Part shown: in pieces, positions 11,213 through 35,047 of the stretch
Layout of the letters: each line of letters begins with the position of its first letter
Position numbering within the stretch: position 1 is the first letter of the stretch
DNA from: a virus
Virus record (IMG/VR): IMGVR_UViG_3300032293_001188
Location: 1-35,047 of that record
Reading direction: 5' to 3' (one strand)
DNA: 35,047 bases
Program-made: the position numbers and the translations under genes
Notes under the pieces: generated by a model
Told to the model about the DNA's origin: nothing
The model's database searches: none
What the model saw: only the letters and a program-made list of their open reading frames with translations

Positions 11213-12085
11213 TTAATTCCAAGTAAATGTTCCTGATGCGTTAAATTGATGATAAGTGTATCCACCTGATTGAGTTATATCTCCACCTGTTGCGTTTGGT
11301 GTACCAGTGTATCTTATAATACAAACACCTGAACCACCTCCACCTGCATTTCCGGTTTCTCCTAGTCTAGTAGCATTACCACCATTACCTGTGTTAGGTG
11401 CTCCTGATGGAGCAGGACTACTGAAACCAACTGAGCCACCTTTAGACCTTACAGTTGCGCTATCATACCATACAGCACCACCTGCATTTCCTTGTCCATT
11501 TATACCACCACCAACTCCACCGTCTCCTCTATACGTTCCTGATGCATTAGCTCCAGCAGTTCCATATAATGTTCCTTGAGATGTACCTCCACCTGAACCT
11601 TGAAAAGAATCTGTTTGACCTCCGCCACCGCCTGAACCTCCAGTTCCGCCTGTTTGACCTCCGCCAGCTCCAAATCCACCACCATCTGCAACAATTAAAG
11701 TTGTTCCTCCACGTTGTAATAATGAATTGTTACCTGAATCACCACTGCCACCTCCACCAGCTTTACCACTAGCTGCAGCTCCAATAACAATATCGTATGC
11801 TCCGGAGAATACATTCAATGAACCAGTCCAATATGCACCAGCACCACCTGCTCCACCACCACCTGCTCCGGATAAACCAGCACCACCACCTCCACCAACT
11901 AATAGATACTCTACTGATGTAGGTGCTACAGTTGTTGTTGTTGAAGTTGTTGTTGTAGTTGAAGTTGTAGAAGTAGTAGATGTAGAAGTAGTAGAAGTAG
12001 TTGTTGTAGTAGGTCCTATTTGTGGTCCTGCTCCAATATTACTTCTACCTCCAGCGCCTAATATGTTTAAGTTTAGATTTAACAT
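11213..12085 (-). CDS. Tail fibre adhesin: Thr-rich stalk plus glycine-rich domain
   Basis: The 290-aa protein has a short N-terminal anchor (1-25), a Thr/Ser block of about 30 residues (about 26-55), then VEYLLVGGGGGAG and a long glycine-rich domain (about 60-260) with many GGGG turns. It ends GGDITQSGGYTYHQF and ASGTFTW. Glycine-rich domains of this type form polyglycine-II sandwich adhesins at the tips of phage tail fibres, and variation in their loops decides host specificity. A paralogous glycine-rich fibre lies at 12408-13811, sharing the GGDITQSGGY end and a 23-nt identical DNA stretch. Confidence 0.75.
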   Translation of the reverse strand: MLNLNLNILGAGGRSNIGAGPQIGPTTTTTSTTSTSTTSTTSTTTTTSTTTTVAPTSVEYLLVGGGGGAGLSGAGGGGAGGAGAYWTGSLNVFSGAYDIVIGAAASGKAGGGGSGDSGNNSLLQRGGTTLIVADGGGFGAGGGQTGGTGGSGGGGGQTDSFQGSGGGTSQGTLYGTAGANASGTYRGDGGVGGGINGQGNAGGAVWYDSATVRSKGGSVGFSSPAPSGAPNTGNGGNATRLGETGNAGGGGSGVCIIRYTGTPNATGGDITQSGGYTYHQFNASGTFTWN

Positions 12086-13814: not shown

Positions 13815-14513
13815 TTATGGCATTGTTGTTGTTGATGTCATTGGTGGATACATCGTTGTTGTTGATGTACTCATTGTTGTGCTACTAGTTGTTGAAGTTG
13901 GCATCGTAGTTGTACTTGTGTACATTGTAGTGCTACTTGTTGAAGTTGTACTGCTACTAGTCGTTGTACTGCTAGTTGATGTTGGTGTAGTAGTTGTTGA
14001 TGTTGTTCCAGTAATACATTCACCACAATCATTGTATGACATTGTTGGAGTTACTGTTGTTCCACCCATTGCTGAAGGAGTTAATGTCCAACATGCGTTT
14101 GTATCAAATGGCGCACCTACTGCGTAAAACTTATAAACTGCTACCAATGATAATGGGCTATATGAAGTAACAGTATAAGAAGAACCTCCAGCACAATTAT
14201 TTATTTGATAATTGTATGTTGTAGGAGATGTTGTTGTAGTACTGCTAGTTGTTGTAGGGGATGTTGTTGTACTGCTACTTGTTGTAGTTGTTGGCATCGT
14301 AGTTGTAGAACTAGATGTTGTTGTACTACTTGTGGTAGTTGGTTGAGTAGTAGTACTTGTTGAAGTAGTACTGCTCGTAGTTGTAGGAGAAGTTGTAGTA
14401 GATGTACTAGTAGTTGTTGTACTAGTCATTGCGTTAATAGCATCAATAGCCGCATTTATCTTTGCTCTTGCTACTGCTCCTGTATCTCCGTTATTTACTG
14501 TTTGTAATGGCAT
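13815..14513 (-). CDS. Mucin-like Thr/Ser-rich virion protein
   Basis: The 232-aa protein starts with a phage-fibre N-terminal module (VNNGDTGAVARAKINAAIDAI, about residues 5-25). It then has a Thr/Ser/Pro block (about 30-118), a compact Cys-containing domain (about 119-168, with NNCAGGSS, NACW and DCGECITG) and a second Thr/Ser/Met/Pro block to the C-terminus. Such blocks are extended stalks and classic O-glycosylation targets. It lies 1.5 kb or less from the sulfotransferase gene and 4 bp before the composite fibre. Function as a decorated stalk or sheath on the tail is inferred. Confidence 0.7.
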   Translation of the reverse strand: MPLQTVNNGDTGAVARAKINAAIDAINAMTSTTTTSTSTTTSPTTTSSTTSTSTTTQPTTTSSTTTSSSTTTMPTTTTSSSTTTSPTTTSSTTTTSPTTYNYQINNCAGGSSYTVTSYSPLSLVAVYKFYAVGAPFDTNACWTLTPSAMGGTTVTPTMSYNDCGECITGTTSTTTTPTSTSSTTTSSSTTSTSSTTMYTSTTTMPTSTTSSTTMSTSTTTMYPPMTSTTTMP

Positions 14514-14525
14514 AATATATTAATT

Positions 14526-14774
14526 TTAATCTATCCAAATTGCATCATCTTTCCACACACCATAATCATTCCATTTAGCAGATGCTAAAATCCAAGGATA
14601 AGGAAATGTAGTAGTTGATGTTGTAGATGTTGTTGTTGTAGTAGGAAGTATTGTAGTTGTAGATGTTGTAGTACTTAGTGATACAAATATAGGTGCACTC
14701 TTTGAAGCATTAACTTGCGTACCACTACCTATTGATGCATTTATATTTCTACCACCTGCTTTAATTCTAAACAT
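14526..14774 (-). CDS. Short Thr-rich virion protein
   Basis: The 82-aa protein has a basic N-terminus (FRIKAGGRNINASIGSG), a Thr/Ser block (about residues 34-57) and an aromatic tail (PYPWILASAKWNDYGVWKDDAIWID). Its start overlaps the stop of the sulfotransferase gene by 8 bp, so the two are translationally coupled. The N-terminus resembles that of the 290-aa fibre (GGRSNIGAG), suggesting a shared anchoring motif. Likely a minor fibre or cap; family unknown. Confidence 0.6.
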   Translation of the reverse strand: MFRIKAGGRNINASIGSGTQVNASKSAPIFVSLSTTTSTTTILPTTTTTSTTSTTTFPYPWILASAKWNDYGVWKDDAIWID

Positions 14775-15240
14775 AATCTTCGTTTGTTAATTCTCCAATC
14801 ATATCAATTCTTTTCTTTGGTTGTATTGGATTATCTACTAATTTAACACCAAACTTTGAACTTATAGTATTGAGTAACTCATTATAATTTTCTACCGCCC
14901 ATCTATGATTCACCACAATACAATTCTCACCCAATGCTTTACCTACCTCAATGTACTTCTGGTGTGTTTCCTTACTCACCTGATACACCCAACCTTGTCT
15001 CTTAATACTTTCCTTCCATTCATCATAATCCTTCCAAATAACCACCGCAAATTGAGAATGCGATAGGGTTGGATAACCATGCTTAAAATCAGTCCAATAT
15101 GGAAAGCTTCCCTCCACATCGTTTTGTATCTCATGCATTGGTGAATAATCTAATCCAAAATTATTTCTCAATGTCCACTCCATAAAGTTTGTACCAGAAC
15201 GAGGTAAACCAAATACCTGTATCTTATTGTACAACCTCAT
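14767..15240 (-). CDS. Sulfotransferase (PAPS-dependent, P-loop)
   Basis: About 157 aa from the preferred ATG at 15238-15240; an upstream in-frame ATG at 15273 would add 11 residues but overlap the previous gene by 50 bp. The N-terminus carries VFGLPRSGTNF, the 5'-phosphosulfate-binding loop of sulfotransferases. A second stretch, FAVVIWKDYDEWKESIKRQGW, resembles the family's 3'-phosphate-binding segment with its Ser. The protein is short compared with typical 250-300 aa enzymes, as in other phage versions. It would transfer sulfate from PAPS to a hydroxyl or sugar. It sits inside the Thr-rich fibre cluster, 8 bp coupled to a Thr-rich gene, while an APS kinase gene lies 10 kb upstream in the same orientation. 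Confidence 0.75.
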   Translation of the reverse strand: MRLYNKIQVFGLPRSGTNFMEWTLRNNFGLDYSPMHEIQNDVEGSFPYWTDFKHGYPTLSHSQFAVVIWKDYDEWKESIKRQGWVYQVSKETHQKYIEVGKALGENCIVVNHRWAVENYNELLNTISSKFGVKLVDNPIQPKKRIDMIGELTNEDYV

Positions 15241-15406
15241 ACTCACACGTTTCTCCGTTATATCGTTTACCAATTAAGGTTCTATCTTCTTCCGTTAATG
15301 AATTCATTCTTTCAACCCCTGTAAAATCGTTATCAGGGTTTGTAATATCGTATGTTCTTATATCAAATACAATATCGTTTTCATCTATACATGCGTACCA
15401 TTTCAT
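15224..15406 (-). CDS. Small conserved fibre-associated protein
   Basis: The 60-aa protein (MKWYACIDENDIVFDI, then EEDRTLIGKRYNGETCEYEVVQ) has the same overall pattern as the 72-aa protein at 10983-11201: an opening 'ID..N.V' strand and a later 'YNG' turn. It is encoded between the LamG-like fibre and the sulfotransferase and overlaps the latter by 17 bp if the sulfotransferase starts at 15240. Probably a small tail or fibre accessory protein; function unknown. Confidence 0.55.
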   Translation of the reverse strand: MKWYACIDENDIVFDIRTYDITNPDNDFTGVERMNSLTEEDRTLIGKRYNGETCEYEVVQ

Positions 15407-15416
15407 AATATCTAAT

Positions 15417-16202
15417 TTAAGCTGTTATTATCATATTTGGTGGTGGTGTAAAGTTAGCTGTGTATTTAGCAACTCCAATGTATATTCTACAATCTTGATA
15501 TGTTGCTGCAGATTGTGCAGTATTATTGTAGTTACCAATATACGATGGCCATGTTGTTCCTCCGTTTATTGTACCTGCTTGCGTTACAGTTGTTCCTTGC
15601 TGAACACCATTTATAAAACATCTATAATCATTACCACTACGAGTTACCGCAACATGCGACCATTGTCCTATTGGAACTGTAAAGCTTCTATTAACCCATA
15701 TACCAAACTCACTACCACCTGATTCAATATATAAACTAAATGTATTCACGCCATGAAACCAACCCATTTGAGTTGTAGCTACTTGGTATGAACGATAGTT
15801 ATTAAAGAAAGGTCTCATCGTAGTTGTTGAAGGATTAACCCAAAACTCCATTGTAAAGTTACTAGCTCCTAAGTTCAAACGAGTATCAGGTATTACTCTT
15901 GCTAATAAAGCATTTGTACCTGTTACTGCTACTGCTCCTCTATATCCTTCGTTTAACCATTTACTACCAGAAGCATTTGTTTGAAATGAACCTGATGTTG
16001 GTTGTCCAAATGTTAATGCTACTGGATATATGTTAGCTGGGCCACCACCTCTACTAATAGGAGATATGTCTTGATTTGCTGATGTCATACCTAAATCAGG
16101 AAACATAACACCTGGCGTTGCATATCTTAATTGTGCAGCATTAGGGTCATACCTTAATTCTGCTTTTTGACCTGTGAATGTATATGGTGTAAATAAACTC
16201 AT
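15417..16202 (-). CDS. LamG / concanavalin-like lectin fibre protein
   Basis: The 261-aa protein has an N-terminal linker (about 1-90) and a C-terminal LamG-type jellyroll (about 90-258). Strand signatures are NFTMEFWVNPS, GQWSHVAVTRSGNDYRCFINGVQ and QDCRIYIGVAKYTANFTPPP. LamG-like domains in phage tails bind carbohydrate. It follows the 1043-aa fibre by 1 bp, so it may be the receptor-binding tip carried by that fibre. No catalytic residues of a glucanase are evident; binding is more likely than cleavage. Confidence 0.75.
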   Translation of the reverse strand: MSLFTPYTFTGQKAELRYDPNAAQLRYATPGVMFPDLGMTSANQDISPISRGGGPANIYPVALTFGQPTSGSFQTNASGSKWLNEGYRGAVAVTGTNALLARVIPDTRLNLGASNFTMEFWVNPSTTTMRPFFNNYRSYQVATTQMGWFHGVNTFSLYIESGGSEFGIWVNRSFTVPIGQWSHVAVTRSGNDYRCFINGVQQGTTVTQAGTINGGTTWPSYIGNYNNTAQSAATYQDCRIYIGVAKYTANFTPPPNMIITA

Positions 16203-16203
16203 A

Positions 16204-19200
16204 TTAAATAAACTTTTTAGCCGGTAATAAATAAACGTTACTACTATCGTATGCTATGAATGTAAGTAAATCAGTATTGTTACTTCCTGATGTAGGTATG
16301 TAAGCTGAACCTGATATTTGTTTTACATTTGAACTAAACGATGCAGTTGGAATACCTACCGTTGTTAATCTTAATGTCACACTTTCTCCAGCACTTGCGT
16401 TTAATATATTAAAGTGAGTAACACCATTTGGTGCTAAACAAGTAAAGAATCCACCTGCGTTAAAATCAATTGATGCAGTTGATGATGCAATTGATGCCGA
16501 TACAATGTTACCTGCTACACTTCCAGTTATGATTAATGAACCTGATATGATTGCTGAACCAGTATAAGGGAATGATGCTCCACCTCCACCTCCAGCATTC
16601 AATGCGTATGATGCAGTTACTGCGTATGAAGAACTCAATACACTCATTGAAGAAGTTACTGAACTATTAATTACAGCTACTCCATTGTTTAATATTGAAC
16701 CAGTCACACCCAATGAACCTGTGATTTGTGCACTACCTGTATAAGGGAATGTTGTATCTACTATGTTTGAACCTGATATGATGTATAATGTATTTACATC
16801 AGGTACTGCTAACCCTGTGTATTCTGCTTCAGTTAGAGTTACTATATGTTCAATTCTAGGTACTGATGGGAATGTATCGTTTCTATTGTCCACTACTGAA
16901 CCTGATTCACTTCCTACCTGTACACCAATACTTCCTAATACGTTTAATGAACCTGTAATATCTACATTACCAATATAAGTTGGTAAGAAAGATGTACCTG
17001 AAGTTCCAGAAGAACCAGCAGGTCCACTAGCTGCTTGTAAATTTACAGTCCAACTTGCGTATGTTCCGCTACCTACTGCTAATGTAATTTGGAATGTCAT
17101 TGAACCAGTACCATCATTATAAGATACTACGATAGCTTCCATATAGTTACTTACATCGTAAGCACATACAATAGGTTGTCCTACCGTAAAATCTAAACCT
17201 GTACCAACAGTTATTGTTCTATTATTACCAATTGCTCCTATTGAAATAGAAGTTGTTGATGTTGTTGCATATTGTTGAGATTCTCCAGATGTACCTGATG
17301 AACCTGATGTTCCATTTACGCCTGATGTGCCACTCACTCCACTAGTCCCACTCACACCGCTTGTACCAGAAGTTCCTGATGAACCAGGGTTACCAGGTGC
17401 ACCATTGAATCCAGAAGTACCGGATGAGCCATTCACACCATTCGTTCCATTAACTCCGTTTGTACCATTCACACCACTCGTACCATTTACTCCGCTTGTG
17501 CCACTTACACCCGATGTGCCTCCACTACCATTCGTACCACTCAAACTTACGCCTGATGTACCTGATGAACCTGCAGTACCATTTGTACCAGTAACACCCG
17601 ATGTACCATTTTGTCCTGAAGTACCAGATGTACCTGAAGTTGGATTTGAACCTGATACAACATATAATGTATTTTGGTCTGTTGCGTATGATGATACTAA
17701 AGCTGCGTATGATGCACTACCAATGCTTATAACTTGCTTAATTGATGGTACATTTGGATAATTAATTCCAACATTTGTTATAACAGAACCTGTTTGTGAA
17801 CCTGATGTAATATTAATTGAACCAGTAACACCAATGTTTCCAACCACATCTAATGAACCGGTAATTCTTGCTGAACCTGTATATGGAAATTGTACACCCT
17901 GAATAGATGATGTTGCTACTAAACCAGCCGTACCATTTTGTCCTACCCATGCGTATCCATCTCTTAATGAAGCAGTGAATGCTCCGTTTACATTTAGAGA
18001 GCCAGTCACACCATTTGTGAATCTAACTGCATTACCTAATTGTATTTCAGTACCATTATCTACTATTGATGATGGCCCGATACGTTCTCCGTTATCAATT
18101 CCTTTAGGTATTGTGTTTGTTGCTATGCCTGTTTCATTACCTATGTTGTTATATGTTTCAGGTCCTAATATGAATAATGAAGATGTTGTTCCACTACCTA
18201 ATGTGTGTATGCTTATCCAACGATTTTCAACTGAATCATAAAAGAATGAACCTGAGTTTTGTGGTATTGAGCCACTATCGTTTACAACCAATCCACCAAA
18301 TCTTACACCTGGCGTTTGTGTGTTTACTGATATGATATTACTTCCAATGTTTAATTGAGAAGATGTGATATAGTTTACTGATGAGCTACCTAATACAGTT
18401 AAGTTTTGATTAATGATTAGAGAACCAGATACAGTAGAACTCAATCCAAAGTTTTTAACATCTAAATTATTAGCAGTTAAGTTTCCGTTTACTACTTCAT
18501 TACCTAATATGTTTACACTACCAGTTATAGTTGTGTTACCTTTAATAGATGTTGAACCTGTTATATTAGTGCTACCTGTAATTTGAGTTGAACCTGATAC
18601 CTTTAATGATGCAGTTACTTCTAAGTTGTTTGTCTTCATATTAGAAGATGTAATCTCATTAGAACGGATAATACCATTACCAGCTGCATCGTACTGCATT
18701 TCTAAATTACCATAGATAAATGCCGAACCTGTCACCTTTACGTTACCACCCATTAAATGTAAACCACCCTGTACATCTACTGCATTATAAGGAGAACCTG
18801 TTACGATTAACCCTTGCTCTAAAACAGTTAAATCATCTACGTTAAGTGTAGAGTTAATTGTTACACCACTATTAACATTCATTGTCAATGTTGATGTACT
18901 CTCTATAATAACATCTGCACCAGCTGCTCCATTAATAAATAAATCACCACCTGCAGTACTACCAATTTGATGTGGATTACCTGATACGGATGATGATATG
19001 AATAATGAGCCTGAGATAGTTTGAGAACCAGCAAACTTATTACTACCAGTAACAGTTGCCTTAGTATTGATGTCAGCTTGTAATACTGATGAACTATAAT
19101 TTAATTGAGCATCGGTTGCGTAAGTGCTATCCAATGATGAACTAAAATTCTGCAATGCTGCAATACTTCCTGAGAAAGATTGCGAATCAATGTTGTATTG

Positions 19201-19335
19201 TCCTTCATCAACCAAAGAATCAATCATATTAGTATTGAATCCTCTTAATATTGATGGAGTAATAAATCCAGCATTGTTATTAGGAAAACTGCTTTGATTG
19301 TCAGCTTGTAATTGGGTCTTATTTAATTGAGACAT
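16204..19335 (-). CDS. Long tail fibre with TGS repeats and collagen-like segment
   Basis: The 1043-aa protein is the longest in the genome. The N-terminus (NNNAGFITPSILRGFNTNMIDS, about 19-40) matches the attachment domain of many aquatic-phage fibres. Next come many short 'ITGS' and 'VTGS' repeats (beta-spiral or shallow beta-helix). Residues about 563-684 are a collagen-like run of GTS, GVS, GVN and GTN triplets. The second half repeats a module starting FPYTGSA with ITGSL at least three times, and a 'NTLYVVSGSN / NTLYIISGSN' element twice. The protein would form a long trimeric fibre, with the lectin encoded just downstream as a possible tip. Confidence 0.8.
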   Translation of the reverse strand: MSQLNKTQLQADNQSSFPNNNAGFITPSILRGFNTNMIDSLVDEGQYNIDSQSFSGSIAALQNFSSSLDSTYATDAQLNYSSSVLQADINTKATVTGSNKFAGSQTISGSLFISSSVSGNPHQIGSTAGGDLFINGAAGADVIIESTSTLTMNVNSGVTINSTLNVDDLTVLEQGLIVTGSPYNAVDVQGGLHLMGGNVKVTGSAFIYGNLEMQYDAAGNGIIRSNEITSSNMKTNNLEVTASLKVSGSTQITGSTNITGSTSIKGNTTITGSVNILGNEVVNGNLTANNLDVKNFGLSSTVSGSLIINQNLTVLGSSSVNYITSSQLNIGSNIISVNTQTPGVRFGGLVVNDSGSIPQNSGSFFYDSVENRWISIHTLGSGTTSSLFILGPETYNNIGNETGIATNTIPKGIDNGERIGPSSIVDNGTEIQLGNAVRFTNGVTGSLNVNGAFTASLRDGYAWVGQNGTAGLVATSSIQGVQFPYTGSARITGSLDVVGNIGVTGSINITSGSQTGSVITNVGINYPNVPSIKQVISIGSASYAALVSSYATDQNTLYVVSGSNPTSGTSGTSGQNGTSGVTGTNGTAGSSGTSGVSLSGTNGSGGTSGVSGTSGVNGTSGVNGTNGVNGTNGVNGSSGTSGFNGAPGNPGSSGTSGTSGVSGTSGVSGTSGVNGTSGSSGTSGESQQYATTSTTSISIGAIGNNRTITVGTGLDFTVGQPIVCAYDVSNYMEAIVVSYNDGTGSMTFQITLAVGSGTYASWTVNLQAASGPAGSSGTSGTSFLPTYIGNVDITGSLNVLGSIGVQVGSESGSVVDNRNDTFPSVPRIEHIVTLTEAEYTGLAVPDVNTLYIISGSNIVDTTFPYTGSAQITGSLGVTGSILNNGVAVINSSVTSSMSVLSSSYAVTASYALNAGGGGGASFPYTGSAIISGSLIITGSVAGNIVSASIASSTASIDFNAGGFFTCLAPNGVTHFNILNASAGESVTLRLTTVGIPTASFSSNVKQISGSAYIPTSGSNNTDLLTFIAYDSSNVYLLPAKKFI

Positions 19336-19349
19336 AAATTTCTATATTT

Positions 19350-19610
19350 TTAATAAACGGGTGTTCCTATATCAAAACCATCACTAAACCCAACACTAAA
19401 TGCTCCTCTAGTTGCAAATTGTGCTGGTACCTGTGTTTGTCCTATCCCTTGTTGAATCAATGCACCATCACAACATTTACGTGAGTATGTGTTTGAATTA
19501 GCACATAAACATGCTTGTCTATTGTTCTTTGGTGAACTCTTTCCCCTAGTAGGTCCTAAGTAAATACCCGATGTTGCTTTGAATCGGGCTAGATAAGCTG
19601 GAGTTGGCAT
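19350..19610 (-). CDS. Small Cys-containing virion-associated protein
   Basis: The 86-aa protein has a cysteine cluster ACLCANSNTYSRKCCDGALI near residues 33-52, followed by QQGIGQ. This CLC, YS, CCDG, QGIG pattern recurs in small proteins next to fibre genes in Bacteroidota and aquatic phages. The four cysteines could bind metal or form disulfides. It precedes the long fibre by 14 bp. The role is unknown; an adaptor between tail and fibre is one possibility. Confidence 0.6.
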   Translation of the reverse strand: MPTPAYLARFKATSGIYLGPTRGKSSPKNNRQACLCANSNTYSRKCCDGALIQQGIGQTQVPAQFATRGAFSVGFSDGFDIGTPVY

Positions 19611-19661
19611 ATACTAATGATTTTATTATTTAACAAACAAATACCCAATTGTAGTGGATTA

Positions 19662-19925
19662 TCATTTTGTTCTAGCCAAAACTTCTTTATGTAATAGATT
19701 CTGTAAGTAATTATAGTCCGAGTTATAAGCTAAGAATAACAAGCACTGCTCTAATGGTAACTCCACAACCTCATCCATCTTCTTTATATCTCCTCCTGCT
19801 AATTGGATAACTGAGCTGTAATTTTTCCACTTCTTTCCAAAACGGACTTGATGCTCGGAGGGAGCTTCTCCAAATCCATCATAGATTTCAGGATAACGCT
19901 CGGTAAGGCCGTTAATAAACGAACA
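19662..19925 (-). CDS. Tail assembly chaperone, -1 frame extension (T-like part)
   Basis: In the -1 frame relative to the 209-aa gene, the reading frame is open through the nine-T run at 19925-19933 and on to a TGA at 19662-19664. After the run it encodes 87 residues. They include FINGLTERYPEIYDGFGEA, FGKKWKNYSSVIQLAGGDIK and LPLEQCLLFLAYNSDY, a pattern typical of the C-terminal half of phage tail chaperones (W, LAGGD, L..L.Y). A ribosomal -1 slip on T TTT TTT would give a fusion of about 255 aa, as in lambda gpG/gpGT. There is no good start codon for separate translation before this domain. A homopolymer error could mimic this. Confidence 0.65.
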   Translation of the reverse strand, partial: CSFINGLTERYPEIYDGFGEAPSEHQVRFGKKWKNYSSVIQLAGGDIKKMDEVVELPLEQCLLFLAYNSDYNYLQNLLHKEVLARTK

Positions 19926-20428
19926 AAAAAAAACAATGCTCCGTAATGTATATCCATTGGAACTTCTAAGAATAGGGCCTCATTATCTTTGCCTGTGTAT
20001 TCTTCTATCTCATACGTTCCCATACTCTTTCTCTTTATAGGTCTATATAGGATATTCATTATCTTTGCCCAATTCTCATCAATAGCAAATGTATCATGCT
20101 TAGTAATGTCCAAATAAGCTCCGTATGCCATCTTTGATAAATTAGGTTCAAATCCATATTCCTTTCCATCTATCATTATAAACCTTTGTAGCTCAGTATC
20201 CGTATTGGTCATAAAGCCTGTAAGGTCTTTCTTAATCTTAATAAAAGTTTCAGTATCCAACCCATGCAGATACTCCGCTGAGAATCCACATAAGTGATGT
20301 AATAAGCATGCCACATAAGCATTCTCATCTTCTCCATACACTTTCAAATCTCTTTGTAATGCTAGGTATTGTTTTAGTGTTACAGCTGACCATTTAGTTG
20401 GTACTACTATTTTAATTTCTTTCTTCAT
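19799..20428 (-). CDS. Tail assembly chaperone, zero frame (G-like)
   Basis: The 209-aa protein begins with basic and aromatic strands (EIKIVVPTKWSAVTLKQYLALQRDL), which fits tail chaperone-like proteins of Bacteroidota phages. It has a central acidic segment and, near residues 163-175, ALFFFVRLLTALP encoded over a nine-T run. It ends SGKITAQLSN. Some ribosomes probably shift to -1 at the T run and make the longer product (see 19662-19925). It follows a 105-aa gene by 1 bp and lies downstream of terminase. The tape measure gene, its usual neighbour, is far away on the circle, which is unusual. Confidence 0.65.
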   Translation of the reverse strand: MKKEIKIVVPTKWSAVTLKQYLALQRDLKVYGEDENAYVACLLHHLCGFSAEYLHGLDTETFIKIKKDLTGFMTNTDTELQRFIMIDGKEYGFEPNLSKMAYGAYLDITKHDTFAIDENWAKIMNILYRPIKRKSMGTYEIEEYTGKDNEALFLEVPMDIHYGALFFFVRLLTALPSVILKSMMDLEKLPPSIKSVLERSGKITAQLSN

Positions 20429-20429
20429 A

Positions 20430-20747
20430 TTATATCTTATTTGATTTTGGTACTACACTAACTCTATCAGCAGGTACAGCCCATTGTTCTGGATTAATTA
20501 AATCAAAGGATGCATTCATTACTACTGCTTCAGTAATAGGTACAGTCTTTAAGGCCTTATCAGCTAATAGGTTTTGATACTTCATCTCTGCTGAATTCCT
20601 TTGTTGTAGTGTAGCAGATAGATAAGCTTTAGTTTCTCTTAGCTGATTTAGAAGTTCTACGTTCTTCTTCTCACTCATAGCAACATAAGCTGCCATCTCC
20701 ATGAAATCATCTTTTGTTAAATTGTCAATGTCAAATTCTTTTTCCAT
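20430..20747 (-). CDS. Hypothetical protein with coiled coil
   Basis: The 105-aa protein has an acidic N-terminus and a likely coiled coil (SEKKNVELLNQLRETKAYLSATLQQ near residues 25-49, continuing to about 65). A Pro-containing C-terminal segment follows. It lies 5 bp after terminase large subunit and 1 bp before the tail chaperone. I do not recognise it. A head or packaging accessory role is possible from position only. Confidence 0.6.
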   Translation of the reverse strand: MEKEFDIDNLTKDDFMEMAAYVAMSEKKNVELLNQLRETKAYLSATLQQRNSAEMKYQNLLADKALKTVPITEAVVMNASFDLINPEQWAVPADRVSVVPKSNKI

Positions 20748-20752
20748 ATTAT

Positions 20753-21916
20753 TTATTTTATACTAATTACATATTTCCCAACAGCTGTTGCTTTTTGTGA
20801 TAACTTCATCATTGCCACATAACGAGCAGCATCTAATAAGTGATTGTTAAAATCAACAGGCCTATCTAATATCTTACCAAACCTATCCGTTTCCCACTCA
20901 TACGAATAGAATTCATTAATAAGGTTCTGACAACTCTTAGGTATCTTTATCTTATAGTTTTGTAGGACACCTATACCAAAGTTAATACTATCCTTACCTT
21001 TAGTCACCGGCTTTATATTAAATCCAGCTCTACGAATTTCTTCTATTAAGCGTGGTTCACTACTATCAGCCCATATCTCCTCATTACCACTCACTGCTTT
21101 CTTTAGCATATCGGTTATTTCGTTTGTCACCATTCCCTTTTCATAGCAATGTTCTAAGATGTATATCTCATTACCATTTAGTTTCCATAAACTTACCAGG
21201 GCATTGGGGTCATTAGCGTAGCCGAAATCCAAGCCCCATGCAATAAACTCTGCATCATCAGGCAACCATTCAATCAATTCAAATTCAAAGATAGCCTTAT
21301 CATTAGTAGTGTACTCACCCTTAGTGTATACCTGATATGCTTTAATGTTGGTATGCTTCAAATCCTCCAATGCTCTTATCACACTTCTTTCCAAATAAGG
21401 ATTATCCTTATAGCTTGTGAAGTAACGAGTACAATCCTGCATCTCTCTTAACCAATGCCAGGGGCTTACAGTTGGATTATAACTTAATATAATCTTTCCG
21501 GTAGTTCTTATTTGTAATTGTAGATACGATTCTGCATCAACCTCCGAGGCCTCCTCAATCCATAGTATGTTTGATTTAACACCTCTCAGCTTCTCTGCGT
21601 TATCCGTACTGATGAATTGTATTTGTGAATCATTATAGAACGTATATGTCCTATCACTTATATTAAAGTCCGAATCAGACCATATACTCATATCTTTCAT
21701 AACGTCCTGAAAATCCTTCATTACAGTCCTTTTAAGCGATGGTATGCTCTTTCTTACTATTGTTATTAGTTGTTTGGTTTGAAGCGCTTGTACTATACAC
21801 CATTGAAGTGTAGCGTATGTCTTACCACTTCTTGAGCCGCCCACCAAATGACACACCCTAGTCGGGCAATTATCTATGTGGCCGTAACTAATCGTTGTGT
21901 TGACTTCCAGATGCAT
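20753..21916 (-). CDS. terL: Terminase large subunit
   Basis: The 387-aa protein has the packaging ATPase-nuclease layout. Walker A GGSRSGKT is at about residues 26-33 and Walker B with catalytic Glu, ILWIEEAS, at about 117-124. A coupling motif SYNPT lies near 145-149. The RNase H-like nuclease domain starts with DFGYANDP at about 230-237 and includes NHLLDAARYV near the end. It fits the PBSX / Terminase_3 type. It forms the motor that drives DNA through the portal and cuts the concatemer. Its start overlaps the small subunit gene by 29 bp. Confidence 0.95.
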   Translation of the reverse strand: MHLEVNTTISYGHIDNCPTRVCHLVGGSRSGKTYATLQWCIVQALQTKQLITIVRKSIPSLKRTVMKDFQDVMKDMSIWSDSDFNISDRTYTFYNDSQIQFISTDNAEKLRGVKSNILWIEEASEVDAESYLQLQIRTTGKIILSYNPTVSPWHWLREMQDCTRYFTSYKDNPYLERSVIRALEDLKHTNIKAYQVYTKGEYTTNDKAIFEFELIEWLPDDAEFIAWGLDFGYANDPNALVSLWKLNGNEIYILEHCYEKGMVTNEITDMLKKAVSGNEEIWADSSEPRLIEEIRRAGFNIKPVTKGKDSINFGIGVLQNYKIKIPKSCQNLINEFYSYEWETDRFGKILDRPVDFNNHLLDAARYVAMMKLSQKATAVGKYVISIK

Positions 21917-22202
21917 CTACTACTTTTTGATTAATGTTTACCGAAATCTGTTGAATTCTTTGTTCAATTTCACCTTTCAACTCAACACGACTTTGTTTTG
22001 GGAGATGAAACTCCAGCATTTTCAATGTAATATCTACTGCAGCCTTTGGGTCATTCTTCATCATCTCATCCATTAAGGCTGGTAGATTATCCATTACTTT
22101 GTTTGTAGCACGAGCTAATGATAGTTTCATCATCTCCGTACTTCTATTGAGAGCTCCTTTAGGTCTGCCTGTTGCTAGTTTGTTTCCTTTTTCAAATGCC
22201 AT
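21888..22202 (-). CDS. terS: Terminase small subunit
   Basis: The 104-aa protein begins with FEKGNKLATGRPKGALNR at about residues 3-20, the DNA-binding opening of many phage small terminase subunits. A helical middle follows (PALMDEMMKNDPKAAVDITLKMLEF), then a polar C-terminal tail. It overlaps terL by 29 bp, the normal arrangement. It would recognise the packaging start site and load the large subunit. Confidence 0.8.
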   Translation of the reverse strand: MAFEKGNKLATGRPKGALNRSTEMMKLSLARATNKVMDNLPALMDEMMKNDPKAAVDITLKMLEFHLPKQSRVELKGEIEQRIQQISVNINQKVVDASGSQHND

Positions 22203-22241
22203 GTTATTTTATGTTATTTTAACATATATAGATATAACACA

Positions 22242-23066
22242 CTAGTCCCAAAATGTATTCATCACCCTACCATAATAAGGGTTGTATGCTTTCTTAAATT
22301 GTATTGTATGCTTTTGATGTATAAAGTCATCATTCAATTGTAGAAACTCATTCTTCATCTTTATTATATGTGGATATAAAGAAGCAAGATGATTCATATT
22401 ATCTAAATTAATTTGTGTAGTCCTTCCAGCTAACTTACAACCACCTTCATTTCCATAATCATCACACTCAAATAAGTACTTATCACTTACTACTGTCTTA
22501 CCTCCCATTGATAGTACCTGAAGAATAAAGTGTACATCTTCTACAAAAGGAATCTCCCATACTATCTTATCTCTATCTAATTTACTTCCATCAATCCAAA
22601 ATACTTGCACCAGCTTTCCAAACTTCATATCATCCTTTGGGTTAGGTGGTAATCCTTTTGCTCTATTGCCTGATATTGCATAACCTTCATTCCATTTATC
22701 TTCTACCCATTGTATCATTTCTTTCCAATCACTATCAGTAAATTCTTCATTACTTTTATCTGCATTCTTTTTACCACTCTTTCTGTCCACATTTCTTTTC
22801 CAAAATGTAATATCATCATCAATCATACAATAGCAATCATCTCCACCATCTTTGATTAACCAATCTCTAGTAGCGCAGATACCTTTGATATAAGCGGGTA
22901 AAACCTTTATGTTGGAGTTAGGATACCTTTCTCTAAATTGAGCCTCCTCCTGTGGTTGTATTACAATGTACGTCATATCCTTAACCCAATCGGGCATAGC
23001 ATCGTATGTAATTTGTTTATTAACTCTACCTAATGTTGGTATGTAAATTCTTTGTAACTTTTTCAT
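22242..23066 (-). CDS. GT-A fold glycosyltransferase (TAGT-like)
   Basis: The 274-aa protein opens RIYIPTLGRVNKQITYDAMP, then YIVIQPQEEAQFRERYP, CATRDWLI near residues 64-71 and CYCMIDDDITFW with DDD at about 83-85 as the metal-binding motif. A late FVEDVHFILQVLSMGGKTVV with acidic catalytic candidates follows near 175-194. This pattern resembles phage GT-A enzymes including the TET-associated glycosyltransferases, some of which modify DNA bases. No base hydroxylase, deoxynucleotide hydroxymethylase or TET-like gene is visible here, so a protein or glycan target is equally possible. It lies between a sigma-like gene and terS. Confidence 0.7.
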   Translation of the reverse strand: MKKLQRIYIPTLGRVNKQITYDAMPDWVKDMTYIVIQPQEEAQFRERYPNSNIKVLPAYIKGICATRDWLIKDGGDDCYCMIDDDITFWKRNVDRKSGKKNADKSNEEFTDSDWKEMIQWVEDKWNEGYAISGNRAKGLPPNPKDDMKFGKLVQVFWIDGSKLDRDKIVWEIPFVEDVHFILQVLSMGGKTVVSDKYLFECDDYGNEGGCKLAGRTTQINLDNMNHLASLYPHIIKMKNEFLQLNDDFIHQKHTIQFKKAYNPYYGRVMNTFWD

Positions 23067-23071
23067 TTTAT

Positions 23072-23626
23072 TTATTTTGGTTTGAATGGATTAACTTTTG
23101 TCAATCTTATGTGTTGTTTAATCTTCTTTACATTTAGAAAGGAAGTACTCTTGCTTATTCCTATATCTTTACTTAACTTATCTAATGTCATCTTATCTCC
23201 ACTAAAGAAATATAATTCAGCTAAACGGGCTGAACTCCACATCTTTGTTCTTTGTAATTGTTGTATCTCATTTACTACATCATCATAGCATTGCTGTACT
23301 TTAGTATCTAGTTCCTCATTGTATTCTTCATCTACTACATCATAAGTGTCCGAAATGGTTTGTACTTTACCATTACTCTTTACCATATTAATGTGTCTTG
23401 TTCTTAAGAATGAATGAAGATACATCATATTGAAATCATTATCACCATACCATATATTTGGATTACCTCTTTCCGCAATGTAAGAATAGAGTTCTGCAAC
23501 TAATTCCTTAGCCATCTCTCTATTCTTTGTTATGTTGTATGCTGCTGACATCAACCAATCATTCTTAACTCTATAAAGAATGTCCAGCCTTCTATTGTTT
23601 TCTTTTTGTATTTCTTCTATCTTCAT
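23072..23626 (-). CDS. Sigma-70-like transcription factor
   Basis: The 184-aa protein has an N-terminal part resembling sigma region 2 (WLMSAAYNITKNREMAKELVAEL near residues 24-46 and MMYLHSFLRTRHINMVKSNG near 67-86). The C-terminus is a helix-turn-helix (MTLDKLSKDIGISKSTSFLNVKKIKQHI near 146-173) resembling region 4. Similar small sigma-like proteins occur in Bacteroidota phages. It would redirect or modulate host RNA polymerase. It is in the leftward train before the glycosyltransferase and terminase genes. It could also be a terminase-linked DNA-binding protein. Confidence 0.6.
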   Translation of the reverse strand: MKIEEIQKENNRRLDILYRVKNDWLMSAAYNITKNREMAKELVAELYSYIAERGNPNIWYGDNDFNMMYLHSFLRTRHINMVKSNGKVQTISDTYDVVDEEYNEELDTKVQQCYDDVVNEIQQLQRTKMWSSARLAELYFFSGDKMTLDKLSKDIGISKSTSFLNVKKIKQHIRLTKVNPFKPK

Positions 23627-23853
23627 TAGATTCTATCACTTACAAATTTTCTCAACTCATCAATACATCTAGCCCATAAGCCGCCTGATGATTTACAACT
23701 GCATGGTTGTGGTTCTTTGTTACCTCTTATTTGTGTACATCTGCTCCACATCTTACCCATAAGGTGTTCAGGTAAATGCATTCTTATTTGTGATAGTTCT
23801 TCTCTCATTAAGTTAAACTCTGCCTCATCAAATGGTGCGTATTTATTTTCCAT
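23626..23853 (-). CDS. Small conserved hypothetical protein
   Basis: The 75-aa protein contains RGNKEPQPCSCKSSGGLWARCIDEL near residues 44-68, giving three cysteines in a CxC...C arrangement that could bind metal. The same short pattern is seen in small phage proteins of unknown role. It shares its last base with the next gene's start (TAATG) and overlaps the preceding gene by 11 bp. Confidence 0.6.
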   Translation of the reverse strand: MENKYAPFDEAEFNLMREELSQIRMHLPEHLMGKMWSRCTQIRGNKEPQPCSCKSSGGLWARCIDELRKFVSDRI

Positions 23854-24112
23854 ATTTTTGTTTGTATTGTTTAATGTTTGTCACAATGTCATTTGATTTC
23901 TCAACGATTGCATAACTCTCTACTTCGCCTGTGTACATATAAACGTAGATTAGATAATCTCTAACTGCTCCGCTTGATAGTGAATCCATTTCTCCTATCT
24001 CCATTGGTCTCATTCTACATACTTCTCTTTTGTTATCATCAAAGTGTACTATTACATCGTTGTATTTTTCTGGGAACGATTCCCAATCTATGTGTGTTAT
24101 TTTGTTTTCCAT
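23843..24112 (-). CDS. Hypothetical protein
   Basis: The 89-aa protein (MENKITHIDWESFPEKYND, then MRPMEIGEMDSLSSGAVRDY) shows no recognised domain. It looks like a small alpha/beta protein. It starts directly after the stop of the 66-aa gene and overlaps the next gene by 11 bp, so it is part of a tightly packed cluster of small genes between the DUF2061 gene and the sigma-like gene. Confidence 0.55.
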   Translation of the reverse strand: MENKITHIDWESFPEKYNDVIVHFDDNKREVCRMRPMEIGEMDSLSSGAVRDYLIYVYMYTGEVESYAIVEKSNDIVTNIKQYKQKYGK

Positions 24113-24313
24113 TTAGTATAATTTTATTCCGTTACATTCTCCATCGTATTCAGGGTTAGTTAGTTTGTTTAGCCATTCTTTTCTTTGGCAACATCCACAT
24201 TCATTTCGTCCGAATACTTTTCTTGCAATCCATAGTGCAATTCTTTCTCCTTGTCCCATTGTTAGAAAATCAATTATGAATTCTAACCACGTTCCTAATT
24301 TAATCCATTTCAT
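24113..24313 (-). CDS. Small Cys-containing hypothetical protein
   Basis: The 66-aa protein has an amphipathic or hydrophobic N-terminal half (WLEFIIDFLTMGQGERIALWIA), then ECGCCQRKEWLNKL with a CxCC cluster and a further Cys near the C-terminus. Metal binding is possible. It follows the DUF2061 gene by 3 bp. The pattern CGCCxRKxWLN recurs in small phage proteins of unknown function. Confidence 0.6.
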   Translation of the reverse strand: MKWIKLGTWLEFIIDFLTMGQGERIALWIARKVFGRNECGCCQRKEWLNKLTNPEYDGECNGIKLY

Positions 24314-24316
24314 ATT

Positions 24317-24523
24317 TTATTTGTTTAATCCGTATTTAATCCATTTATACCAAACTCTTTCGTGTATGTAGTATTGGATTGGTTTGTAAACTAATTCTGC
24401 TACACCAAATGCTGCACCAGCCTTAATAGAACCTGTTATCATCCACATTAGACCGAAACCAATTAAGGTACTTACTATTCGGTAACTAATTGTCTTAGCT
24501 ATGTGTCTCTTATAGGATACCAT
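24317..24523 (-). CDS. DUF2061 small membrane protein
   Basis: The 68-aa protein fits DUF2061: KRHIAKTISYRIVSTLIGF near residues 5-23, a hydrophobic stretch to about 35, then AAFGVAELVYKPIQYYIHERVWYK near 38-61 ending in the family's HERxW. Two membrane segments are likely. DUF2061 genes are often found near sulfate activation genes (cysC, cysD, cysN) in bacteria. Here the gene overlaps the nucleotidyltransferase by 14 bp, with the APS kinase next. Its biochemical role is unknown; a link to sulfate activation is suggested by context. Confidence 0.75.
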   Translation of the reverse strand: MVSYKRHIAKTISYRIVSTLIGFGLMWMITGSIKAGAAFGVAELVYKPIQYYIHERVWYKWIKYGLNK

Positions 24524-24851
24524 TGTTTCTCATTTTAGTACCGCTTATTTCCCTTATCTCTTGCGGTGGTTGGTGTTCTATCACTTCGTACCCTACATCC
24601 CTCCCATAGTTAAAGGATTCAATATCAGGTATAATGCTTAACATTACTTTACCTTCTGCTATCTCTACTCCTAAATGTTTATGTAACTCCATCATTACTT
24701 GCCAAGCATTAAGTGGATTATTCTCATCCTTCTCTACATCTCTTATTGCTATCCAAACCTTCTTACCTTTCTCCAACTGCTGATTGATTAACCATCTATG
24801 GCCTTCATGCCATGTCTGCCATCTCCCTATATAGAGTGCGTACTTTTTCAT
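24510..24851 (-). CDS. HxGH nucleotidyltransferase, possibly for sulfate activation
   Basis: The 113-aa protein starts [19 protein letters not shown], a variant of the GRFxPxHxGH motif, and ends with ISGTKMR, matching the ISxTxxR motif of the cytidylyl/adenylyltransferase superfamily. Between them is IIPDIESFNYGRDVGYEV. ATP sulfurylase belongs to the same superfamily, so a role in making APS is possible, but NMN adenylyltransferase-like activity cannot be excluded. It overlaps the APS kinase gene by 47 bp and the DUF2061 gene by 14 bp, which implies joint translation and a shared pathway. Confidence 0.65.
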   Translation of the reverse strand: MKKYALYIGRWQTWHEGHRWLINQQLEKGKKVWIAIRDVEKDENNPLNAWQVMMELHKHLGVEIAEGKVMLSIIPDIESFNYGRDVGYEVIEHQPPQEIREISGTKMRNNGIL

Positions 24852-25239
24852 AATCGTTTTTATTATTTGTGTTAATTAAAATGAAATCTTGCTGAGGTTC
24901 TTCGTATGTAGTTGTATGTGGACTTCTAATCTCATCACAACAAACATATATCTCAACAATATCATTACCCATTGCCTTTTTGAATTCTTCTCTCTGCTCT
25001 CTAAACGGAGCTATCACCGATACTATTACTGAATTGTATTTTGAATTAAGAAACTTAGCAATGTTTTGTGCTAACTCTACATTCTTCTTTCTACCTTCTG
25101 CTGAGTAATCTTTATTTTGGAATACATCTCTCAACTCATCACCATCAATTGTTACCGCATGTGTGTCAAGTTCTTTCTTCATCCAATTAGATAGAGTTGT
25201 CTTACCAGCGCCTGATTGTCCTGTTATCCAAAATATCAT
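24805..25239 (-). CDS. cysC: Adenylyl-sulfate (APS) kinase
   Basis: The 144-aa protein has the P-loop GQSGAGKT at residues 7-14, the APS-kinase DGDELR at about 32-37, SAEGRKKN near 46-53, and [15 protein letters not shown], which matches the family's 'iSPyr..R' strand. A shortened lid and C-terminal region, [18 protein letters not shown], replaces the usual longer one; host enzymes are about 200 aa. The enzyme phosphorylates APS to PAPS, the sulfate donor of sulfotransferases, in the cytoplasm. It overlaps the HNH gene by 4 bp (ATGA) and the nucleotidyltransferase by 47 bp. With the sulfotransferase at 14.8-15.2 kb it gives the phage both PAPS synthesis and use. Confidence 0.85.
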
Positions 25240-25826
25240 ACAGTAGTTGGTTTATTCTTTCTTAGCTTCTTACCAGCGTAACGGATTGGTTTCTTTTTGT
25301 ATAACTTCTTACCTGATGATAGAGTAGCACATAGAGAATGATGTGAGAAACCATTTACCATAGCACATTCCTTAATTGAATTGTACTTAACTCCGTCATA
25401 ATAAATAGGACGAGTAACTGATTCTCTACCTAACACTACAAACGCGTGTGTTATGTTTTGTTGTCTTGTCATCCATTCTAAGTTCTCTACTCTATTGTCT
25501 TGCTTCTTACCATTGATGTGATTCACTTCTAATGGTATCTCTTTACTATCTACATCATACGTTGGTAATGGTTTAGGTATGAAGGCCTCTGCTACTAACC
25601 TGTGTACTCTAATCCATTTACGAATACCTTTACCATTTGTATCTCTACCAAATAGTCCTACTTCCAAATATCCTCTGTTGTGTTCTTTAGGTCTGATAGG
25701 ATATAGTCCACCACTTAGGAATGCTTTAGTAGCGTGTACATTTGAATACACTATACCATTTGCTGAAATAAAATAGTTAGGGAATCCTTCAATGCCCATT
25801 ATTGGGTCTTTTACATTACTTGCCAT
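25236..25826 (-). CDS. HNH homing-type endonuclease (NUMOD4-HNH-NUMOD1)
   Basis: About 196 aa from the ATG at 25824-25826, which follows the upstream stop by one base; a longer frame starts at 25856 but overlaps the previous gene. A NUMOD4-like start ([17 protein letters not shown]) is followed by a HNH core, [13 protein letters not shown] and [18 protein letters not shown], with the His, Asn and His-region residues in place. A C-terminal NUMOD1-like DNA-binding repeat ([18 protein letters not shown]) and a basic tail complete it. Free-standing HNH enzymes of this kind promote their own spread and that of flanking DNA. It lies directly before cysC, coupled by ATGA. Confidence 0.85.
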
Positions 25827-34614: not shown

Positions 34615-35047
34615 TTAAGGGTTCAATTGGAATAAAATCATACACTTATCGTTATAATGCGGGTATCCTTCCTGACAATCTTCATTTATTAGATAAATTG
34701 GATTTAGCTGAAATGGAGGTATCATTAGATTAATGCATTTCCAGCCACCATTCTCTACATCAGGGTTCATATCCCATTTAGTAAAGGATGTGGCTAGGAG
34801 GTATTTTGAGCCACTCTCCTGACAGTTTCTTATAGCCTTTGATACATTATCATTACTTAGGTGTCCCAAGCAATCTCTGGTGAATATTAAATCTACCTTT
34901 GGTAATGGGTCATTGATTAAATCCAGCACCCTAAAATCGGTATGCGGATAATTTGCTTTGTTTAATCCTATCAATGGGTCTACTATATCTGCTCCTATAT
35001 AAGAAGCGCCACATAAATCTACATCTTTCATCCAGTTCCAGTCTCCG
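34615..35047 (-). CDS. Class I SAM-dependent methyltransferase, main part (5' end lies past the junction)
   Basis: C-terminal portion of the 199-aa methyltransferase that starts at base 290 on the circle. This part shows YIGADIVDPLIG, the strand and acidic residue that bind SAM ribose; DLIFTRDCLGHLSND, the family's motif near the active site; and a C-terminal half with GGWKCINLMIPPFQLNPIY. The frame is uninterrupted across the junction, so the gene is intact. Within the linear window bases 34925-35047 duplicate 1-123. The 51-aa gene and tape measure follow after a 25-bp gap. Confidence 0.85.
   Translation of the reverse strand, partial: GDWNWMKDVDLCGASYIGADIVDPLIGLNKANYPHTDFRVLDLINDPLPKVDLIFTRDCLGHLSNDNVSKAIRNCQESGSKYLLATSFTKWDMNPDVENGGWKCINLMIPPFQLNPIYLINEDCQEGYPHYNDKCMILFQLNP
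34925..35047. repeat. Terminal direct repeat, right copy
   Basis: Identical to bases 1-123. Removing one copy gives a circle of 34,924 bp with an intact methyltransferase gene over the join. Confidence 0.95.

Follow-up and report, generated by a model that had tools for sequence, protein, structure and literature searches.

The 35,047-bp genome of a virus of bacteria (IMG/VR record IMGVR_UViG_3300032293_001188, analysed at its full length and called the window here) carries three overlapping genes that, as judged from sequence and with a probability of roughly 0.7, form a compact sulfate-activation module making 3'-phosphoadenosine 5'-phosphosulfate (PAPS). The first step seemingly falls to a type of enzyme with no earlier known link to sulfate: a small nucleotidyltransferase (NT) would adenylylate sulfate with ATP to give adenosine 5'-phosphosulfate (APS). 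A CysC-like kinase would, in keeping with its family, phosphorylate APS to PAPS, and a DUF2061 protein may be an accessory, perhaps a membrane anchor. PAPS would then feed a phage sulfotransferase, here the putative product of 14767-15240. The likeliest targets, and the weakest step of the scheme, would be the tail-adhesin proteins encoded alongside or a glycan touched by them. Sulfate is generally known to be activated by two unrelated enzymes, Sat and CysDN. We lean slightly towards regarding NT as a third class of ATP sulfurylase (~110 residues, NadM-derived, occurring in many phages as well as in bacteria and archaea), which together with a mini APS kinase would make up a portable PAPS module with which phages would sulfate either their own virions or the surface of the host. 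The cassette comprises the following features.

24805..25239, minus strand: CysC-like (APS kinase) gene, 144 aa; basis: Pfam APS_kinase, nearest PDB relatives, invariant residues
24510..24851, minus strand: mini HxGH nucleotidyltransferase (NT), 113 aa; basis: AlphaFold model, NadM-like fold, pairing with CysC
24317..24523, minus strand: DUF2061, small predicted membrane protein, third gene of the cassette; basis: Pfam, viral neighbours, CysC fusions
24318..25274, minus strand: whole ~0.95-kb cassette as an accessory block; basis: alignment to L220 and L224

A preliminary description of this DNA had proposed a phage-borne sulfation pathway, and its core idea holds and reaches wider than proposed: the probable PAPS-making unit has a conserved gene order, is fused in both directions and co-occurs with sulfotransferases, CysQ and CysH. 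The four genes and the motifs it named are real, the motifs reading GQSGAGKTT (P-loop) and DGDELRD in the kinase, ISGTKMR in NT and GLPRSGTNF in a sulfotransferase-like gene that overlaps a Thr-rich gene by 8 nt. Its statement that no phage system with such a combination had been described agrees with the open-access full-text literature, in which no system of this kind was found, including under DUF2061 and the combined topics.

NT overlaps cysC by 47 nt and DUF2061 overlaps NT by 14 nt. Searching 2.9 million viral contigs with the kinase as query brought up 48 loci. NT and DUF2061 adjoin cysC in 47 of them, in the order of the window in 46 and with NT and DUF2061 swapped in one. A scan of viral contigs with NT gave more than 580 relatives, and among the 80 kept for inspection DUF2061 lies close to NT in all but L186; the DUF2061 protein of the window itself matches its Pfam family with E=1e-16. 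The cassette is present or absent as one precise accessory block. Two contigs (L220 and L224, terminase 92-94% identical) lack exactly 24318-25274 and have the flanking genes joined; their alignments run down to 25275 and resume at 24317, with only ~34 bp in between. The cassette is found in none of 21 terminase-related contigs having enough upstream sequence.

The kinase and NT are one protein in Clavibacter phage 33 and Stenotrophomonas phage DLP6. The same holds for PHROG_10255, a phage family whose name is just 'kinase': its first half matches the window kinase and its second half NT. The pairing extends to cells: scanning 84,980 species genomes with NT yielded 62 cellular loci, and 54 of these have NT either in one protein with a CysC domain or no more than ~1.5 kb from cysC. 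CysC leads in eight of the fourteen fusions and NT in the other six, which implies at least two separate joining events. The groups concerned include Marinimicrobia, Bacteroidota, Acidobacteria, Nitrospirota, Haloarcula and Woesearchaeota. Neighbours of cellular NT include Sulfotransfer_1, _3 and _5 proteins and a CysQ-type Inositol_P protein (L098, L108, L064, L092); across all cellular NT neighbours the Pfam tally is diverse, with sulfur-linked families present and none dominant. In two Chitinophagaceae loci (L092 and L105) a DUF2061-CysC fusion is followed by NT and then by a sulfotransferase. As a side observation, the same cluster (L092 8515-12532; L105) also holds an Asp/Asn beta-hydroxylase and a PKHD hydroxylase beside tail-collar-like genes, and can be described as a hydroxylation-plus-sulfation cluster. 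NT comes immediately after CysI- and CysH-like genes in four Nitrospira loci; the CC motif of this CysH presumably marks the APS-reducing type.

If NT replaces ATP sulfurylase, neither Sat nor CysN is expected in cells that have both CysC and NT (the DISPLACEMENT test). Sat is absent from 45 of 50 NT genomes, and CysN over its cut-off from 46 of 50. In the order to which L098 belongs, 63 of 148 genomes have CysC over the cut-off. Within this single order CysN occurs in 0 of 5 CysC-bearing genomes with NT versus 55 of 58 without it (Fisher p=8e-6), one of the 55 being a partial CysN just under the cut-off; counting against this comparison, the genomes are mostly incomplete metagenome-assembled or single-amplified genomes and the five NT-bearing ones may be a single clade. 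In genomes and operons alike, NT is thus found where Sat/CysDN would be expected, which supports the earlier suggestion that the nucleotidyltransferase could stand in for ATP sulfurylase. Among the exceptions, the Nitrospira NT genomes carry Sat-CysC fusions (L214-L217). QTRNP is altered in three of these four Sat copies, and GRDHAG in two of the three (QTRHP/QTRSP, YRVH, GQDYAS, GWDYAS): these two are without the GRDHAG arginine, one of them also without an HxxH histidine, and the third has its change in QTRNP. From these sequences, it looks as if the Sat domain is decaying where NT is present.

By descent, NT is something other than an ATP sulfurylase. It matches Pfam CTP_transf_like weakly (E=0.014) and NCBIfam NadM models with E~1e-6, scoring 27.7 bits against the curated NadM cut-off of 127. 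Like NadM, the archaeal NMN (nicotinamide mononucleotide) adenylyltransferase, it has the HxGH fold and the GRxQxxHxGH and ISxTxxR motifs, here as GRWQxWHxGH and ISGTKMR, which are common to a 54-member family. In profile alignment, NT and NadM correspond in the nucleotide-binding half and once more at the ISGT-R motif; unlike NadM, NT lacks ~33 residues between these conserved blocks and has a conserved SVNYGRGVGY stretch instead. The ATP-sulfurylase motifs QxRNPxHxxH and GRDHAG are absent from NT, which also has no PF01747 match. Membership of that Sat family was rejected, HHalign showing no relation to Sat beyond ISGT-R. A fold search with the AlphaFold model (pLDDT, the predicted local distance difference test, 90.6) ranked NMN and phosphopantetheine adenylyltransferases best, with a true ATP sulfurylase at rank 49. 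The best reading is that NT is a trimmed, NadM-derived HxGH enzyme, an ATP sulfurylase by proposed function and not by descent.

The kinase is assigned more directly. It matches Pfam APS_kinase with E=2e-19 and 70.5 bits, above the curated cut-off of 21.1, and scores 73.9 bits against the NCBIfam apsK equivalog, under the stricter cut-off of 138.7. Its P-loop and DGDELRD motif are in place, its closest PDB relatives are APS kinases, and D32, G33, D34, R37, R50 and N53 are invariant across the kinase and its relatives; the R and N residues are those which we take to bind APS. The canonical APS-kinase lid (the KGLYKKAR region) is absent from the window kinase and its viral relatives, which have RGRE or less in its place. 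NT is also found paired, in many cells, with canonical CysC that has the lid; this favours APS as the intermediate common to both enzymes. From its family, the window kinase can be expected to convert APS to PAPS.

A use for PAPS is suggested by the genes around viral cassettes. Classical sulfotransferases lie directly upstream of cysC in L037-L046, L121, L134 and L183. One lies between NT and DUF2061 in L124 (by Pfam), as do those of L122 and L158, the latter two identified solely from a motif and a resemblance to other proteins of this kind. Within the stretch examined, sulfotransferase relatives occur in 26 cassette loci, in 17 of them inside the cassette or at most 1.5 kb from it. Sulfotransfer_3 is over its cut-off in 11 of 50 cassette records versus 0 of 50 control phage records, which were drawn from the window's own phage group only and are shorter on average than the cassette records; Sulfotransfer_2 occurs in three more cassette records. 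In L031, L125 and L151 the slot between NT and DUF2061 that elsewhere has a sulfotransferase is taken by 2OG-Fe(II) (2-oxoglutarate- and iron(II)-dependent) oxygenases. SET-like and methyltransferase-like genes seem to be present in this gap too (L193, L020), and the gap looks like a cargo site of the cassette. Apart from these arrangements, NT-DUF2061 pairs without an adjacent cysC are seen in T4-like phages (L126, L128, L136, L154, L162, L181 and similar), and in several of these a short gene resembling sulfotransferases lies 2.6-7 kb from NT. A defence role was also considered and is unsupported; PADLOC gave weak P-loop matches only.

In the window, the candidate sulfotransferase stands apart from the cassette, between two possible targets.

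14767..15240, minus strand: short sulfotransferase-like gene, 157 aa, with the PAPS-loop GLPRSGTNF; basis: four-member family, fold model, cassette co-occurrence
15417..16202, minus strand: LamG-like (Laminin_G_3) virion/adhesin gene, possible target; basis: Pfam, 1e-16
14526..14774, minus strand: Thr-rich gene, possible target; basis: open reading frame, overlapping the sulfotransferase stop by 8 nt

The placing of the whole pathway inside the fibre cluster, as first described, therefore stands for the sulfotransferase only; the cassette is flanked by an HNH-like gene and the terminase block, ~9 kb from the tail-adhesin cluster. The product of 14767-15240 is probably a sulfotransferase. Peptide scans found relatives in three contigs only (L050, L051 and L194), whereas phmmer against the PDB and tblastn in 50,697 phage records gave no match. 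The resulting four-member family keeps GLPRSGTN and a V-I-x-K....W..S stretch, whose Lys/Ser part, at the expected 3'-phosphate site, is invariant. The fold model is of moderate confidence (pLDDT 68.6; predicted template modelling score, pTM, 0.71), and the top PDB matches of this moderate model are nearly all PAPS sulfotransferases (best E 0.012, probability 0.94-0.98). The gene also travels with the cassette in related phages, a co-occurrence that the preliminary description had suggested looking for: it is present in 3 of 3 cassette contigs, the window included, versus 1 of 16 others covering its place (p=0.004, small n). The strict 2x2 test on contigs covering both sites gives p=0.25 and is underpowered, with one negative contig. 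In L050 and L194 the sulfotransferase is accompanied by cassette genes at the contig end, and L051 does not cover the cassette site. The LamG-like gene adjoins the sulfotransferase in L050, L051 and L194 as well, and the Thr-rich neighbour is kept in L051 only. The constant LamG-like neighbour and the Thr-rich overlap in the window make virion adhesins, or the glycan they bind, the natural first candidate targets. Separately, long mucin-like stretches of Thr/Ser were seen in virion-cluster proteins encoded at 13815-14513 (88 Thr in 232 residues), 14526-14774, 11213-12085 and 1235-2197; these are possible sites for O-glycosylation or other modification.

Several findings weigh against a PAPS module of this kind. 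The closest solved fold of NT is NMN adenylyltransferase, and HHalign of NT with Sat aligns only the ISGT-R end, with a probability of 0.4%. The window kinase is without even the RGRE mini-lid of its relatives, so that its lid is eroded. Many T4-like records have NT-DUF2061 and no cysC on the contig, some of them over 100 kb; only two records, both >200 kb, have a non-adjacent cysC, which lies far from NT-DUF2061 in both. Further, the 14767-15240 protein matches Pfam Sulfotransfer_3 with E=0.17 and 12.5 bits, below the cut-off of 27. The last point, with the missing PDB sequence match and the moderate model, would fit a different kind of P-loop protein, in which case PAPS would serve a host sulfotransferase. 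Given the fold matches, the invariant PAPS-loop residues and Lys/Ser stretch, and a presence that tracks the cassette, this is doubtful; of the alternatives it deserves the most weight, and it is compatible with the proposed function of the cassette. The similarity of NT to NadM in fold and profile would also suit an NMN adenylyltransferase, the kinase then being an analogue of ribosylnicotinamide kinase in a unit for nicotinamide adenine dinucleotide (NAD) salvage like NadR, which combines both activities too. However, the kinase clearly belongs to the APS-kinase family and its lid-bearing counterparts pair with NT in cells, the context is one of sulfotransferases, CysQ and CysH with CysN absent where NT is present, and NT has lost what lies, in NMN adenylyltransferase, between the HxGH half and the ISGT motif. 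NAD salvage is accordingly the least probable of the readings considered.

Freshwater phage cysC has been published as an auxiliary metabolic gene for assimilatory sulfate reduction (PMC10914622), a role that would raise the host's cysteine supply. CysC is an assimilation enzyme in many bacteria, and the Nitrospira NT sits with CysH. However, none of 50 cassette records has CysH over its cut-off, a result that argues against the published interpretation; the cassette neighbours read by eye included no sulfite reductase, and in many records a sulfotransferase is directly adjacent. Assimilation is therefore improbable, and the best reading is that many phage 'cysC' genes serve sulfation and not sulfur assimilation. 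A slightly smaller chance is given to a kinase-NT pair that makes another 3'-phosphorylated adenylate, or an activated headgroup, for neighbouring glycosyltransferases or oxygenases. A GT9-like glycosyltransferase and 2OG-Fe(II) oxygenases are often found within or beside the cassette, and the sulfate site of NT is putative; yet such a product would leave unexplained the missing CysN/Sat, the CysQ and CysH neighbours and the adjacency to PAPS-dependent sulfotransferases.

The proposed PAPS module resembles CysD/CysN or Sat with CysC in its chemistry and its CysC-family kinase, and in cells the NT unit sits with sulfotransferases, CysQ or CysH. It differs in having as its first enzyme a 113-aa NadM-like protein with no homology to ATP sulfurylase, in the deleted lid of the phage kinase and in the added DUF2061. 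Bacterial sulfation clusters (cysC, PAPS sulfotransferases and CysQ) likewise place PAPS-making genes beside sulfotransferases, whereas the present unit is phage-borne, minimal (~0.95 kb), free of CysDN/Sat, and acquired or lost in one piece. PHROG_10255 (Casjensviridae phages, Stenotrophomonas phage DLP6) has the same kinase and NT, fused into ~245 aa; in the stretches shown, no DUF2061 or sulfotransferase is annotated, and the annotation is just kinase or hypothetical protein. The phage cysC genes of PMC10914622 probably overlap the window family, and the passages of that paper concerned with them do not mention the NT, DUF2061 and sulfotransferase partners.

If the proposal is correct, a third, far smaller sulfate-activating enzyme would supply a missing pathway step in Marinimicrobia, many marine Bacteroidota, Acidobacteria and some archaea, and the tiny PAPS module could be of practical use. 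In phages, the presence of cysC would point to sulfated virion or surface structures and not to sulfur assimilation, changing the meaning of a common annotation, and phage sulfation would become directly testable.

The first and last 123 bases of the record are identical (1-123 = 34925-35047), and this terminal repeat indicates that the 35-kb phage genome is closed. A methyltransferase-like gene crosses the junction of the genome ends. One more gene was recorded.

22242-23066: TAGT-type glycosyltransferase; basis: Pfam, 1e-18, and PHROG beta-glucosyl-HMC glucosyltransferase

This gene is a further precise accessory insertion: L220 and L224 lack it, as do the cassette phages L050 and L194.

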